Virus record (IMG/VR): IMGVR_UViG_3300035190_000070
Location: 1 to 31,277 of that record
Strand: one strand, 5' to 3'
DNA length: 31,277 nucleotides
Source of the DNA: a virus
Numbering within the stretch: position 1 is the stretch's first letter; each line of letters opens with the position of its first letter. The translations under genes were made by a program, and so were the position numbers. This document shows positions 16,803 through 31,277 of the stretch, one piece after another. A model generated the notes under the pieces. It was not told the origin of the DNA and did no database searches. It saw only the letters and a program-made list of their open reading frames with translations.

Positions 16803-17846
16803 TCAATTTTTACCATCCCATTGCTCTAAGACTCTTTTTAGTTTCTTCATCATGGCGTTGGCAATCTTGTCTTCTACAGTTTCTTCAAAGTCGAAAAAGC
16901 CCTCTACTGAGAAACCTTTGAACTCACCCTCTTTTACTCTCTGCCAAATAGATTCATCGTTTACGATGTAAGAAAGAAACCAACTTCCATCTGCTACTTC
17001 TTCGTAACCTTTTGGAGGCATAATGCCACGCTCTCTGTCAACGATGAATGACTCAAATAAAGAAAGTCCATTTACTGCTTTATCGTGATGAATGTTTACT
17101 GCATCGTACTTGTCACCTCTTGCCCATTTCTTAGCAATTTCAAAAATCGTTTCTTTGTCAAATACCACGTAGTATTCACCCCTTACATCATCGTAACGAT
17201 AAATAGGTAAATCAGCAATCATTGCAGCACCTGAGATTATACGCTTCTCTTCGTTCTGAATCTCAAATCTTGCTTTTCTTGCTTTGCTAAGTTCCAACTC
17301 TTCTAACTTGCGTTCAGTCCAACGAAGCATCTCTTCTCCACCCCATAATAAATAGCTGATAGTTCCACACGCTTTTGTGTCTGATGGGTTGTAGTATTCT
17401 TTAGCTCTTGACAAATAAGAGTAAGTGCGTTTAATCGTTTGCAAAGAAAGATTCTCTCTTGCTACTAATTGTCTTGCTCTGTTCTTACCTACTAAGGTAG
17501 CACAGTCATTGCTGATAGCCTCGTTCAGGTTAATTCCTCTCTGTGCGTTTTGACTTGCTGCTTTTGGATAGTCGTTGAAGAACTCATGTTTATCAAATTT
17601 TCCACCTTCCCAATATGAATAGCAGATTGCAACTGCCTGTTCATTTTCATAACCTTCGTTAATGACTTTCTCAACACAACGAGATATAAACTCACCTTCA
17701 TTCTCTCCTGGTCTTGGATCAACAAAGTCTTGCTCACTAAAATATTGAAACTCTTTTTCTATTGCAGGGTTGGTCACAAGTGACACGAATTCAACTCCTG
17801 TTTCATCCTCAGGATTTATAACGAGTTTGTAAATTGGCAAATCCAT
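16803..17846 (-). CDS. Prohead protease, XkdF-like, with inserted helical domain
   Basis: Protein of 347 residues. The extreme N-terminus (DLPIYKLVINPEDETGVEFV, then SLVTNPAIEKEF) and the C-terminal third (GEYYVVFDKETIFEIAKKW, NIHHDKAVNGLSLFESFIVD, WQRVKEGEFKGFSVEGFF) match XkdF/Peptidase_S78_2-type putative prohead serine proteases. The NIHHDK His and GFSVEG Ser are candidate catalytic residues. Between them (about 50-190) lies a separate helical module with FFNDYPKAASQNAQRGI, LVGKNRARQLVARENLS and SYLLWGGEEMLRW, seen elsewhere in phage head proteins. It would process scaffold and capsid during maturation; the gene order supports this. Confidence 0.8.
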   Translation of the reverse strand: MDLPIYKLVINPEDETGVEFVSLVTNPAIEKEFQYFSEQDFVDPRPGENEGEFISRCVEKVINEGYENEQAVAICYSYWEGGKFDKHEFFNDYPKAASQNAQRGINLNEAISNDCATLVGKNRARQLVARENLSLQTIKRTYSYLSRAKEYYNPSDTKACGTISYLLWGGEEMLRWTERKLEELELSKARKARFEIQNEEKRIISGAAMIADLPIYRYDDVRGEYYVVFDKETIFEIAKKWARGDKYDAVNIHHDKAVNGLSLFESFIVDRERGIMPPKGYEEVADGSWFLSYIVNDESIWQRVKEGEFKGFSVEGFFDFEETVEDKIANAMMKKLKRVLEQWDGKN

Positions 17847-24300: not shown

Positions 24301-25480
24301 AAAAAAATAATCCTTTTTTGTTGTGTTGTTTGCAGTCCCACGCCAACGCTAATGACATTACGCAGTCATCATGAAGTCCTTGTGGTGCGGTGTATTTTAC
24401 TCCTGTGCGGGAATATTCAAATTCAAAGTTACGCATTTCATCAGCAATGTTCCCGTCAGGGAATCCGATTTGCCTTTGTTGTACTGCCATCACCAAGCCC
24501 TCAATAAGTTGTTGTTTGCTCTGTGATGTAAATTTAAAGCCTACTACTCTTGGGTGCTTACGTTGTAGCTGCTCAACGATTGGATCACCAACACCAGTAG
24601 AGTCTAAGTAGGTCGGAGTGTTTCCGATTAAGTTAGAAATCTTTGTCATTGTCTGACTCCAATCCATTTGAAAGCGTTCAAAGTGACATACATTGCCTTG
24701 TTCGTTCAGTCCTATAATAACCGTCCAATCCGTATATTTTGCTAAGTCAATGCCGTATGCCGTAACTATACCCGATTGGGTAGGAATTATACAGTTTTCT
24801 ATATTATCGTACCCGAAAGGGTTTGAATTGTCATCAGCAGGTTCTGCAAGGTACAACTCCTTGAAAACGTAGTCGGGTAAATCACGCTTTGCCTGTTCTA
24901 TTTCTTCTACATCTAAGATGCCCTCTTTCGCTGCATCGTAAGCGGTTATTTTAAAGTACTCAAGATTAGGTTCACCTCCTTTGGCTTTCTCTCCCAATTT
25001 GTAAAACCAATTCTTTTTCCCTTTGACGTTACCGATTAGTTTGCATTTCCCTTTGGTAGCCGTCAACGTAGAACGTAAAGCGTACCATGATTCTTCTCTT
25101 GCTCTACTTGCCTCGTCAAATACTGCTGCATAAACATCGTCACCGTATAAGTTGTCAGGTTTCTCTGCAGATTTAAACTCTATCCGTGAACCTATCGGAG
25201 TAGTTAAGACAAGTTTAGATTCATTACTCTGAAAGAAGTCACGAGAGTTGACCTGTGCTTTCATTCTCCTGAATGCTATCTCCGCTTGTTGGTACACAGG
25301 AGCAACCCACCACACCGCTTGGTTTTCTTTTAGTTTCAAACTCTGTTCAAACAACCAAATAATATGAGATGCAGTTTTACCTGTCTTAGTCGATGCTGCC
25401 GTAATTGTGTAACGTGCAGGACTATCTAAGATGGCTTTCTGATAACTCGTTAAAAATGGTCGTTTGTAGTTTATTTGCAT
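24293..25480 (-). CDS. terL: Terminase large subunit
   Basis: DNA-packaging motor ATPase/nuclease of 395 residues. ATPase: Walker A AASTKTGKT (28-36), Walker B VYAAVFDEA (116-124). Nuclease (RNase H-like): IDLAKYTDW with Asp245, YLDSTGVGD with Asp293, and HDDCVMSLALAW with Asp371/Asp372 near the end. The domain order and length match short Bacteroidota-phage terminases. Overlaps the glycosyltransferase end by 10 bases. Pumps DNA through the portal and cuts it. Confidence 0.93.
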   Translation of the reverse strand: MQINYKRPFLTSYQKAILDSPARYTITAASTKTGKTASHIIWLFEQSLKLKENQAVWWVAPVYQQAEIAFRRMKAQVNSRDFFQSNESKLVLTTPIGSRIEFKSAEKPDNLYGDDVYAAVFDEASRAREESWYALRSTLTATKGKCKLIGNVKGKKNWFYKLGEKAKGGEPNLEYFKITAYDAAKEGILDVEEIEQAKRDLPDYVFKELYLAEPADDNSNPFGYDNIENCIIPTQSGIVTAYGIDLAKYTDWTVIIGLNEQGNVCHFERFQMDWSQTMTKISNLIGNTPTYLDSTGVGDPIVEQLQRKHPRVVGFKFTSQSKQQLIEGLVMAVQQRQIGFPDGNIADEMRNFEFEYSRTGVKYTAPQGLHDDCVMSLALAWDCKQHNKKGLFFYA

Positions 25481-26493
25481 ACTTTCTGTAACAAATCTAT
25501 TCTCTTTTTGTTAATCTCTTTAATGTTGTGATGCTCGTTGCAGTAGTTGTAGTTGATTAATCCTATCTCTTTACTTTTTCCGCTTTCTATCAGTTGCGTT
25601 AACGGTGTAGTCCAATCGTTATTCTGCACAAAGAAAACTCCTAAGTTACTTTTGTGGTTCGTGTATGGCTCTACACTTGAAACTAAAATAGGTCGCTTGT
25701 ACGCAGCAGCCTCAACAATCTTCAACTCTGACTTGTAGCGATTGAATGTCTGAGCCGTCAAAGGTGCTAAACAAATGTCAATCTCAGAATAAATCTCAGC
25801 GTATTTATCAGGTGTTGTCCCTACTCTCGTTTCAAACCATGTCGGTCTGTTCTTTTGGCTTTCTCCTGTTATGGCTTTCTCCATCTCTGCCCACATTCTA
25901 CTATTCTCGTGGTGTCCACCCATTATAAACCTATATCCATACTTCTCACAGATAGGTCTAATTTGATTTGTAAGCAACTTTATGTCCTCAACGTGACTTA
26001 TTCCACCTACCCAACCAATCGTTGGTGTATGGTCTTTATTTACGTTCCATTGAGCCTGTGTAAAGTCTACTGCATTTTCAGCAATCGTAATGTTGTCGCC
26101 TTTGTAAAACTCCTTTATCTTTTCAGCAAGTTGTGGAGTCGTAACCTGAACGCCATCAGCATAGGTTAAAGCGTTCTTAACTCCGTCTTTGATGTAGGCT
26201 CTGTAAAACTTGTACGCTGGGTTGTACTTCGGCAGTACCCAATAGTCATCAAGGTCAACGATGTAAGGTACTTTGTACTTTGCAAGTAATGGAAGTATGT
26301 TGTACTGATAGCGTCCTAACCAACGATTAAATATAACGCAATCGTATTGCTGATAGTCAAGGTTTACCCAATCTTCATGGTTCAAGCTGACATCAACAGT
26401 AATATCGTGGTCTTGTTGTAAACGAAGATAGGGAGTGTACAATCTATGAAAGGACACTCCGTTTGCTCCGTCAAGTAGACAAATTACTTTCAT
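25471..26493 (-). CDS. GT-B fold glycosyltransferase
   Basis: Glycosyltransferase family-4-like protein of 340 residues. N-terminal Rossmann domain: VICLLDGANGVSFHRLYTPY (3-22), YDCVIFNRW, VPYIVDLDDYW. C-terminal nucleotide-sugar domain: PTIGWVGGISHVEDIKLL (about 162-179), RFIMGG, and KSELKIVEAAAYKRPILVSS with the E-x7-E donor-binding motif. It would transfer a sugar from an activated donor to an unknown acceptor (phage DNA base, virion protein or host surface). Placement inside the terminase operon between small and large subunits is unusual. The ATG overlaps the upstream TAA by one base. Confidence 0.85.
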   Translation of the reverse strand: MKVICLLDGANGVSFHRLYTPYLRLQQDHDITVDVSLNHEDWVNLDYQQYDCVIFNRWLGRYQYNILPLLAKYKVPYIVDLDDYWVLPKYNPAYKFYRAYIKDGVKNALTYADGVQVTTPQLAEKIKEFYKGDNITIAENAVDFTQAQWNVNKDHTPTIGWVGGISHVEDIKLLTNQIRPICEKYGYRFIMGGHHENSRMWAEMEKAITGESQKNRPTWFETRVGTTPDKYAEIYSEIDICLAPLTAQTFNRYKSELKIVEAAAYKRPILVSSVEPYTNHKSNLGVFFVQNNDWTTPLTQLIESGKSKEIGLINYNYCNEHHNIKEINKKRIDLLQKVCK

Positions 26494-28204: not shown

Positions 28205-28774
28205 TTAGTTCATTTTTTTCTTAAATAATAAACTCCACTTTGTAGGCTTTGACATCTCCAGTAATAGAGTGAATCCGCATTGCTCAAATAAATGCACCCA
28301 ATGTGCTACAGGCTTGATGTTGATGTGTCCCCATTCTTTGTCAAAATTAGAGTAGTGAGGCGTAGATGAGAAATGAAAGTAATTACATTTTAGGTTTGCT
28401 AAAAATGGTTTTAACTTGTCGTCCTCTATATGCTCCATTACTTCTATGCAACTTACAAAGTCTGCTTTGATTTTCTTGGTTGTAAAATCACAGATGTGAT
28501 ATTCATCAGCTACGTTCCGCTCGTGGGCGTATTCGTAGTGGTGTTCATTGAGGTCGTAGTAAATAGTCTTGATGCCTTTCTTCTTCATTGCTAAACAATA
28601 AGCACCTACTCCACCACCTAAGTCTGTGTGTGTTTTAATATCTAACAGAGTTGTGATTTCATTTACAACATCGTCATACATATTTACAAATGATGGGTTA
28701 TCTAAATGGATGCCGTTTCGCATTTCGTAATCAAAGCATTGCTGATTATTCCAAGTTCCTCCGAATGAGTTCAT
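28205..28774 (-). CDS. SAM-dependent methyltransferase, class I
   Basis: Protein of 189 residues with Rossmann methyltransferase motifs: TDLGGGVGAYCLAMKKKGI (motif I, about 50-68), IYYDLNEH (motif II acidic residue, about 71-78), ADEYHICDF, and KADFVSCIEVMEHIEDDKL (motif IV region, about 103-121) followed by FHFSSTPHYS. It lacks DPPY/NPPY or C5 motifs, so it is more like small-molecule, sugar or protein methylases than DNA methylases. It may modify a glycan or metabolite together with the glycosyltransferase downstream; that link is speculative. Overlaps the previous gene by 29 bases. Confidence 0.82.
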   Translation of the reverse strand: MNSFGGTWNNQQCFDYEMRNGIHLDNPSFVNMYDDVVNEITTLLDIKTHTDLGGGVGAYCLAMKKKGIKTIYYDLNEHHYEYAHERNVADEYHICDFTTKKIKADFVSCIEVMEHIEDDKLKPFLANLKCNYFHFSSTPHYSNFDKEWGHINIKPVAHWVHLFEQCGFTLLLEMSKPTKWSLLFKKKMN

Positions 28775-29895: not shown

Positions 29896-30042
29896 TCAAT
29901 ATTGTTTCCACACTACTCTTGTCGTAAGTGATTCGTCAACAGATACTAATTCCCATCCTAACTTTGTGTACTTTCTCCAGTAATAGATGACTTCCTCTTC
30001 ATTGTTAAGACAAATATGGAGATATTCTCGTGACCTCCTCAA
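29896..30042 (-). CDS. Hypothetical 48-residue protein, DUF4177-like
   Basis: Frame from a TTG at 30042 gives REYLHICLNNEEEVIYYWRK, YTKLGWELVSVDESLTTR, VVWKQY. The beta-helix-beta-beta pattern with GWELVSV recalls DUF4177-type proteins. There is no ATG; TTG is followed by AGGAGG, which is too close to serve as its own ribosome site. It overlaps the end of the DnaA domain-IV gene by 38 bases. Start uncertain; a +1 frameshift from the upstream gene is an alternative. Confidence 0.5.
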   Translation of the reverse strand: MRRSREYLHICLNNEEEVIYYWRKYTKLGWELVSVDESLTTRVVWKQY

Positions 30043-30490
30043 GGTAATTGTCAGGAATCGCATTTAGTCGTGATTTAATTCTGTTGTGCATTGCCGTTTC
30101 AAACTTCATGTTAATGTCAAGGTAATCGCCTATCATATCTCTTCCGTGAATGACTGTTGAGTGGTCACGGTTTAAGTATAGACCGATTTTCTTTAGTGAC
30201 TGATTTAGTTCGTTGTAAGCGAAGAAACAAAACATTGCTCTTGCAATTACATACTCACGCTTCCTTGAACGAGAGAAAAAGTCTTTAGGTATCACGTTGG
30301 ACTCCTGACAAACTATTCTGAGTAGTTCATCAAAGTTCTTGTCTACCTTTTTTGTTTTCTGCTCAGGCTTTAAGATCATTTGTCTTAGTTCTTGGATTTC
30401 TCTCTTAGCACTTTCAAGTTTGTTCTCGTAGGTTGTTTTTAACCTGGTGTGTGATGCTTTTAATTTGATGTATTCGTATTCGTAGTTCAT
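30005..30490 (-). CDS. Stand-alone DnaA domain IV (DnaA-box binding) protein
   Basis: Protein of 161 residues. Residues 5-45 form a coiled coil (KASHTRLKTTYENKLESAKR). Residues about 52-135 match DnaA domain IV: RKREYVIARAMFCFFAYNEL, then LKKIGLYLNRDHSTVIHG (about 99-116), where RDHSTVIHG is the DnaA signature loop that reads DnaA boxes. There is no AAA+ ATPase domain. It may bind origin-like sites in phage or host DNA, redirect or block host DnaA, or act as transcription regulator. Coupled by ATGA to the cytosine methyltransferase. Confidence 0.85.
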   Translation of the reverse strand: MNYEYEYIKLKASHTRLKTTYENKLESAKREIQELRQMILKPEQKTKKVDKNFDELLRIVCQESNVIPKDFFSRSRKREYVIARAMFCFFAYNELNQSLKKIGLYLNRDHSTVIHGRDMIGDYLDINMKFETAMHNRIKSRLNAIPDNYLEEVTRISPYLS

Positions 30491-31277
30491 AGTTGTTTAA
30501 ATATTTCGTAAGCTATTTGTGGTAAAATTGCGTTTCCGTAACCCTTGATTGATTCTGCTCTCCATTTTGAAAAGGTAATTCCGTCCAATTCGGTGGGAAG
30601 CCCATCATCTCCGCCACAAATCGGGGATTGAGTTGGGAACGAGTCCCAAGTATGTAATTGACTTCCGAAACGAGATCGTCTCCTTTCCAATTTGGCATTC
30701 TCCATCTCGTTTGATAATCTGATTTTGTTGGTGTTGGTAGCATCCCCATTGTCATTGCTCTTGCTAATGTTACTGAGTGCATACTTCCCTCCTTTACTTG
30801 TGTTGATTTCATCGTTGCTGTTGCATTGGTTGAATCCATTACTGTTGGAGTAGGCAATAAACCAGCACCTATCTCTGCGGTGCGGTGCGTTTTTGGCTGC
30901 AGCACAAATAATAAACGGTTGAACTTCGTACCCTTCAGCTTCCAAGTCAAGGCACACCTGCTCGAAAACCAATCCGCCATCAATATTCGTGATACCAAAG
31001 ACGTTTTCTGCAATGACATATTTGGGTTTAATTTCTTGAATTGCTCTAAGCATTTCTCCCCATAAGTAGCGTTCATCATCTGTGCCTTTTCTTTTTCCTG
31101 CAGTTGAGAATGGTTGGCAAGGGAATCCTCCTGTGAGAATGTCAATTGTGTTTGCATATTTTTTAAAATCAGTTTTACAAATGTCTATGTGACTATCAGC
31201 GTTTGGAAAATAATAGTCTAATACTTTACGAGGGAACTCCATCCATTCGCAATGGAATACGTTATCCCAACCCATCC
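30487..31277 (-). CDS. DNA (cytosine-5) methyltransferase, main part (gene wraps across contig ends)
   Basis: C5-cytosine DNA methyltransferase; joined with 1-182 it gives a full 281-residue enzyme that transfers a methyl group from SAM to cytosine. Numbering from the joined start: SAM-binding motif I FSGIGGFD (about 7-14), catalytic motif IV GGFPCQPF with Cys72, motif VI ENV (109-111), motif VIII HRRDRCWFIA (151-160), a short target-recognition region, and C-terminal motif X-like GNAI (about 266-269). All key residues are present, so it should be active. The stop overlaps the next gene's ATG (ATGA at 30490-30487). Probable role: protecting phage DNA from host restriction or marking it during replication. 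It is an orphan: no cognate restriction enzyme is recognised nearby. A second long frame is embedded in it (30513-31157). Confidence 0.93.
   Translation of the reverse strand, partial: MGWDNVFHCEWMEFPRKVLDYYFPNADSHIDICKTDFKKYANTIDILTGGFPCQPFSTAGKRKGTDDERYLWGEMLRAIQEIKPKYVIAENVFGITNIDGGLVFEQVCLDLEAEGYEVQPFIICAAAKNAPHRRDRCWFIAYSNSNGFNQCNSNDEINTSKGGKYALSNISKSNDNGDATNTNKIRLSNEMENAKLERRRSRFGSQLHTWDSFPTQSPICGGDDGLPTELDGITFSKWRAESIKGYGNAILPQIAYEIFKQL
30513..31157 (-). CDS. Overlapping alternate-frame protein inside the cytosine methyltransferase gene
   Basis: Open frame of 214 residues, same strand, different frame, fully inside the methyltransferase coding region. Sequence features: QEDSLANHSQL at the start, WFSSRCALTWKLKGTKFNRL (about 63-82), RTAEIGAGLLPTPTVMDS (about 92-109), GMLPTPTKSDYQ, and SQLNPRFVAEMMGFPPNWTE (about 173-192). 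From memory, proteins with the ALTWKLK, LLPTPT and LNPRFVxxMMGFPxxWT motifs are a frequent phage family, annotated hypothetical or methylase-associated. Such a long open frame with recognisable motifs is unlikely by chance in A/T-rich DNA. Start at 31157 is only the first Met; the true start is unknown. Confidence 0.6.
   Translation of the reverse strand: MQTQLTFSQEDSLANHSQLQEKEKAQMMNATYGEKCLEQFKKLNPNMSLQKTSLVSRILMADWFSSRCALTWKLKGTKFNRLLFVLQPKTHRTAEIGAGLLPTPTVMDSTNATATMKSTQVKEGSMHSVTLARAMTMGMLPTPTKSDYQTRWRMPNWKGDDLVSEVNYILGTRSQLNPRFVAEMMGFPPNWTELPFQNGEQNQSRVTETQFYHK
31151..31277. repeat. Terminal direct repeat, right copy
   Basis: This is the second copy of the 127-base overlap described at 1-127. 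Removing one copy restores a single uninterrupted methyltransferase gene, which is the main argument that the genome is closed here. Confidence 0.95.

Follow-up and report, generated by a model that had tools for sequence, protein, structure and literature searches.

Here we report a stretch of phage DNA that in all likelihood encodes, in two reading frames of the same strand, both halves of a heterodimeric C5-cytosine methyltransferase. The window, i.e., the whole stretch of DNA analysed, comprises 31,277 nucleotides (IMG/VR record IMGVR_UViG_3300035190_000070); judging from its sequence and that of its relatives, a methyltransferase gene at one end (D) would provide the alpha subunit and an open reading frame nested within that gene (O, also called ORF2) the beta subunit. 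The observations computed here are the coding signatures of both frames, the presence of motif IX in O, the absence of a small domain from D, the exchange of modules between loci, and the redistribution of motifs among relatives. We infer that the two products form a heterodimer, that the modules act as target-recognition units, and that the enzyme has an anti-restriction role.

The two genes and their motifs

Gene D (30487-31275; all features of the window described here are on the minus strand) was assigned to the C5-cytosine methyltransferases by PF00145 (8.8e-38), and its product is the proposed alpha subunit, equivalent to the large domain of single-chain enzymes. Its motifs follow the order typical of PF00145, namely I, IV (PCQ, 31114-31122), VI (ENV, 31000-31008), VIII (HRRDRCWFIA, 30853-30882) and X (GYGNAILPQ, 30517-30543); the N-terminus including motif I runs off the contig end, and motif I was taken from the identical contig L001, which gives MRHGSLFSGIGGF. 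The chain has neither motif IX, which sits in the O frame, nor a target-recognition domain of its own. An initial annotation of this DNA had credited D with every catalytic motif, which holds for PCQ, ENV, HRRDR and GNAI and fails for motif IX (located in O) and motif I (located off the contig).

The second frame on the same strand was described exactly in the initial annotation (30513-31157, 214 codons); it is in the +1 frame relative to D, begins with an ATG (31155-31157) that is kept in 93% of the window's clade, and by its coordinates lies wholly within D. Its product, the proposed beta subunit of 214 amino acids, was identified by a match to phrog_1008 (2.8e-24) together with the dual-coding signature. 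The N-terminal region of O (residues 1-64, 30966-31157) lies over motif IV to ENV of D and beyond and is missing from Megaera-type relatives; it is followed by a hairpin, SSRCALTWKLKGTKFNRLLFVLQP (residues 65-88, 30894-30965), over the D stretch that precedes motif VIII. Module clustering delimited two proposed exchangeable target-recognition units, module 1, LLPTPTVMDSTNATATMKSTQVKEGSMHSVTLARAMTMG (residues 100-138, 30744-30860), and module 2, MLPTPTKSDYQTRWRMPNWKGDDLVSEVNYILGTR (residues 139-173, 30639-30743). Motif IX, SQLNPRFVAEMMGFPPNWTELPF (residues 174-196, 30570-30638), was located with hhalign against single-chain relatives. The motif blocks of the two frames coincide as originally noted, with HRRDRCWFIA over HRTAEIGAG (30861-30887) and SPICGGDDGL (30580-30627) over NPRFVAEMMG, which is part of LNPRFVAEMMG inside the motif IX segment; LLPTPT, said to occur twice, is present once, together with one MLPTPT.

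Coding signatures in the two frames

That O is genuinely a second coding frame of the D gene is strongly supported by the comparison of related sequences. In the nearest viral relatives (80/80; 83/83 including the first three annotated phages) and in all 80 genome loci, from many phyla, that were fetched with an O profile, neither frame is interrupted and their register is the same. The same register of O was found in 14 further annotated loci, several of which had been retrieved via D and not via O (mycobacteriophage SG4, Synechococcus phage S-H1, Microcystis phage Mel-JY01, a marine podovirus, and two Bacteroides phages). When each D protein was recoded with its own codon usage, a mean of approximately 6.8 stops was expected in the +1 frame and the probability of encountering none was ≤0.014 per gene, which argues that the O frame is not open by chance.

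The window's clade yielded 28 disjoint pairs, for which substitutions at the first, second and third codon positions of D were counted and compared with Fisher tests. The rates were 0.055/0.037/0.227 before O and 0.081/0.034/0.258 after O, with the third position evolving fastest and a ratio of third to first position (D3/D1) of 4.1 and 3.2, respectively. They were 0.416/0.247/0.246 in the module region (D3/D1 0.59; p 1.5e-37) and 0.257/0.128/0.153 in the motif IX region (D3/D1 0.60; p 2.8e-25); over modules and motif IX, the fastest position is the first of D, i.e., the third of O, which corresponds to the wobble position of the C-terminal half of O. The stretch from ENV to motif VIII is constrained in both frames (p 1.6e-8), and the strongest two-frame constraint falls on the hairpin of O. 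The first 48 or so codons of O show little extra constraint (D3/D1 2.99 vs 4.09, p 0.12), and constraint on the N-terminal region is weak as far as ENV, a point against the two-subunit proposal. Synonymous change at unchanged D residues drops from 0.40 before O to 0.22 in the overlap (at 20–25% divergence) and is lowest (0.06–0.09) over the hairpin, a portion of module 1, and motif IX. Constraint on synonymous sites, which the initial annotation had proposed as a test of dual coding, is strong in the overlap except for its N-terminal third.

Motif IX, modules and the proposed enzyme

Residues 172-195 of O align to motif IX of single-chain relatives (hhalign, 97.7% probability, E 1.8e-12), one of which aligns with M.HhaI through motifs IX–X (phmmer). 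Upstream of motif IX, each O protein carries one to seven modules that begin with [LW]PTP and have a median length of 39 residues (928 modules in 382 O proteins). The same module types are found in different groups and at differing array positions; when exchange is measured against the D core, modules are up to 87% identical between loci whose D cores are only 35–45% identical. Because the types are shared across divergent loci and array positions, the modules are read as exchangeable units, and they probably serve in target recognition. The multispecific C5-methyltransferases of Bacillus phages, M.SPRI and M.phi3TI, likewise have, between motifs VIII and IX, several target-recognition units that can be exchanged, which is also the arrangement found in O; they consist of one chain encoded in one frame, whereas the candidate units described here are located in a second chain and an overlapping frame. 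The initial suggestion that the second protein is real, and may be a partner of the methyltransferase or determine its specificity, gains support from the two-frame constraint, the conserved ATG, motif IX, and the swapped specificity-like modules.

In the AF2 model of D, the large domain and the motif X helix are confident, and residues 166-248 mostly have a pLDDT <50. The best PDB match of this model in Foldseek is M.HhaI (1.7 Å over 164 columns), and D is predicted to fold as the large domain of M.HhaI only; M.HhaI, unlike D, keeps its target-recognition domain and motif IX on the same chain. Modelled alone, O is unfolded (pTM 0.26) except for two elements, the motif IX helix and the hairpin (residues 69-89), the latter being the sole pair of strands predicted with confidence. 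Such a failure to fold alone might be expected of an obligate partner; since the model has a pTM of only 0.26, no fold comparison backs the assignment of O to the small domain.

In the proposed enzyme, D (alpha) would be the catalytic large domain with motifs I–VIII and X, which binds AdoMet and holds the catalytic cysteine, and its segment between motifs VIII and X would be a read-through linker to motif X and not a folded recognition domain. O (beta) would be initiated at its own ATG in the +1 frame and recognise the DNA site; its conserved hairpin probably docks on alpha, its one to seven [LW]PTP modules of approximately 39 residues would be target-recognition units exchanged by recombination, and its motif IX would complete the active enzyme, such that D and O would have to assemble for methylation. 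The enzyme would most likely be used to shield phage DNA from host restriction, and shuffling of modules would alter or multiply the protected sites.

Two-chain enzymes of this kind have precedents. Lee, Kam and Shaw are said to have described in 1995 that the small chain of M.EcoHK31I is encoded in another frame inside the large one, and both chains are reportedly required for activity. By its motif layout, M.EcoHK31I is the closest characterised enzyme, with D resembling the chain with motifs I–VIII and X and O the chain with motif IX. M.AquI and M.EcoHK31I are both two-polypeptide C5-methyltransferases; the large chain of M.EcoHK31I carries motifs I–VIII and X together with the predicted target-recognition domain, and the small chain carries only motif IX (PMC3404938). 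As in M.EcoHK31I, it is motif IX, and not motif X, that lies on the second polypeptide of the window. The two systems differ in that M.EcoHK31I belongs to a bacterial restriction-modification system (YGGCCR) whereas D and O occur in phages and prophages, and in that our proposal places recognition in the small chain, a discrepancy that counts against it. Multiple swappable modules, dual-coding evidence and a wide phage distribution were not found described for M.EcoHK31I in the accessible texts. The two-chain layout is already known; new, as far as checked, are the evidence for dual coding, its breadth, and the swappable modules of the second frame.

Relatives, alternatives and distribution

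Loci that divide the motifs otherwise served as natural controls; the queries used to retrieve loci for this comparison were four different D proteins and no O protein, and each locus was sorted according to which frame encodes motif IX. If motif IX is in O, the core from motif IV to VIII is free of +1 stops in 171 of 176 loci (all sets minus the Rhodoplanes-type), and the +2 frame of the same loci averages 5.2 stops. If motif IX is in D, +1 stops occur within this core in 26/26 loci, which represent mostly a single clade plus one damaged gene; the latter (L170) was excluded from further consideration, as it seems to have been damaged by a frameshift. The separate Rhodoplanes-type set has no +1 stop in 71/71 cores. 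Across the same catalytic stretch, all 14 canonical C5-methyltransferases contain +1 stops, and the only two stop-free control loci in that comparison are of the nested type themselves. The placement of the motifs in the controls implies that each frame is open up to the motif it needs and closes once that motif has moved to the other chain. Scattered +1 stops in homologues, named in the initial annotation as evidence against dual coding, were found only where the matching part of O had been lost or moved.

The Megaera-type genes encode motif IX in D, and their O is shortened by approximately 30 N-terminal codons and by its motif IX end; the part with the [LW]PTP modules is still open (about 115–250 codons). 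A loss of O from these genes was considered and rejected, since O survives as a shorter ORF. If the modules are target-recognition units, they must act here as part of a second chain that has no motif IX; this requirement counts against the proposal. Loci L204–L228 and L238 are single-chain genes of this type with a short O that holds PTP modules only. The Rhodoplanes-type loci (L284–L363) have an unusual motif order, with a YYNEIDPF block preceding an AHFFAGIAGW block and CPCQPF and GEQV replacing the usual motifs, yet show the same nested O.

In four actinophage loci (L506–L509, from Streptomyces, Mycobacterium and Arthrobacter phages), D ends shortly past motif VIII, and O, in the +1 frame, carries motif X in addition to the modules and motif IX. 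The motifs are divided likewise in M.AquI (CYCGRG), an enzyme split into alpha and beta whose beta chain has motifs IX and X (PMC3404938). In the window, D retains motif X and O lies wholly inside D.

Among the alternatives, it is improbable that O is real but not a subunit of the methyltransferase, e.g., a regulator or an anti-restriction protein in its own right whose gene arose on top of that of the methyltransferase. No Pfam or NCBIfam domain was found in O, and a PDB sequence search with O, both as single sequence and as profile, returned nothing, leaving most of the protein without a detectable homologue among solved structures, in favour of this reading. Against it, the motif IX missing from D is supplied by the end of O, relatives shift motifs IX and X between the chains with matching loss in the other frame, and, apart from the rearranged locus L472, no stand-alone O was found in the viral contigs, the genomes, or 398 Pseudomonadota genomes, a check that the initial annotation had suggested; every other O found lies within or across D in the same register. 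Marginally less probable is programmed ribosomal frameshifting, in which translation would start in D and change to the frame of O in the vicinity of motif VIII, so that a single fusion product and no separate O would result. A single +1 shift from D to O would indeed yield a complete motif I–X methyltransferase in the actinophages, but the O frame is already constrained upstream of any such shift point (ENV to motif VIII, with synonymous change of 0.09), O has a conserved ATG, and in the window, where O is nested in D, motif X could be reached only by shifting twice. Finally, a functionless O, kept open by the composition and codon usage of a conserved methyltransferase, is very improbable: spurious long +1 ORFs are known in GC-rich genes, and the conserved residues of D force part of the apparent conservation of O, but the G + C content of the window's clade is only about 39%, recoding predicts about seven stops, +1 stops are present in canonical and Megaera-type relatives that share this catalytic core, and the switch in codon positions, with a fast O wobble over modules and motif IX, contradicts it.

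The pair of D and O occurs well beyond the window. A tblastn search with O matched 70 phage records, 67 of them covering ≥80% of O, and matches in IMG/VR comprise at least 596 stretches. The PHROG to which O belongs, phrog_1008 ('DNA methyltransferase'), also matches 66/66 O proteins of relatives and is present in 27 of 398 sampled Pseudomonadota genomes, where every intact copy examined overlaps D; its label is silent on a nested second frame without catalytic motifs I–VIII. A search of the E. coli genome with a relative from a P2-like phage yielded two partial matches. Hundreds of phages and prophages share this double use of one stretch of DNA, for which databases mostly give a single protein instead of two. 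Records variously name D, O, both, or O alone. The initial annotation had suspected that the family is partly an artefact of mis-framed methylases; phrog_1008 instead represents a real nested gene, and the suspicion holds only insofar as annotation is inconsistent between records. In Porphyromonas phage018a (L083, 2206-3234), O alone is annotated, as a hypothetical protein, and the D frame was missed. An analysis of Paenibacillus larvae phages lists two adjacent 'DNA-cytosine methyltransferase' genes, and their overlap is unmentioned in the passages searched (PMC6070908). No description of the nested phage family was found in the open-access literature, to which the search was confined.

We consider it slightly more probable than the contrary that D and O represent a widespread, ancient phage family in which an interchangeable target-recognition array is located in a +1-frame subunit and module swaps rewrite specificity while keeping both frames open, and that the pair is among the most broadly conserved same-strand dual-coding pairs in prokaryotes. 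Long conserved overlaps on the same strand are considered rare in prokaryotes; here, the two-frame constraint extends over approximately 200 codons and is shared by many phyla, and the natural controls track the position of the functional motifs. Many phage 'Dcm' annotations would represent half an enzyme, predictions of specificity from the annotated protein alone would fail, and assays that express or recode only D may give false negatives. The swapped modules would provide a testable code from sequence to methylation site.

Downstream of D, the window encodes a stand-alone DnaA C-terminal domain (30005-30490; PF08299, 5.9e-17), a helix-turn-helix gene without the ATPase part whose own ATG overlaps the stop codon of D. 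The same phage also encodes a small SAM-dependent methyltransferase (28205-28774; Methyltransf_23) and a glycosyltransferase (25471-26493; phrog_7162). A further gene (16806-17846) has matches to head maturation protease PHROGs as well as to phrog_1530, which is labelled 'DNA methyltransferase'; this label may be wrong, or the family may be a fusion.
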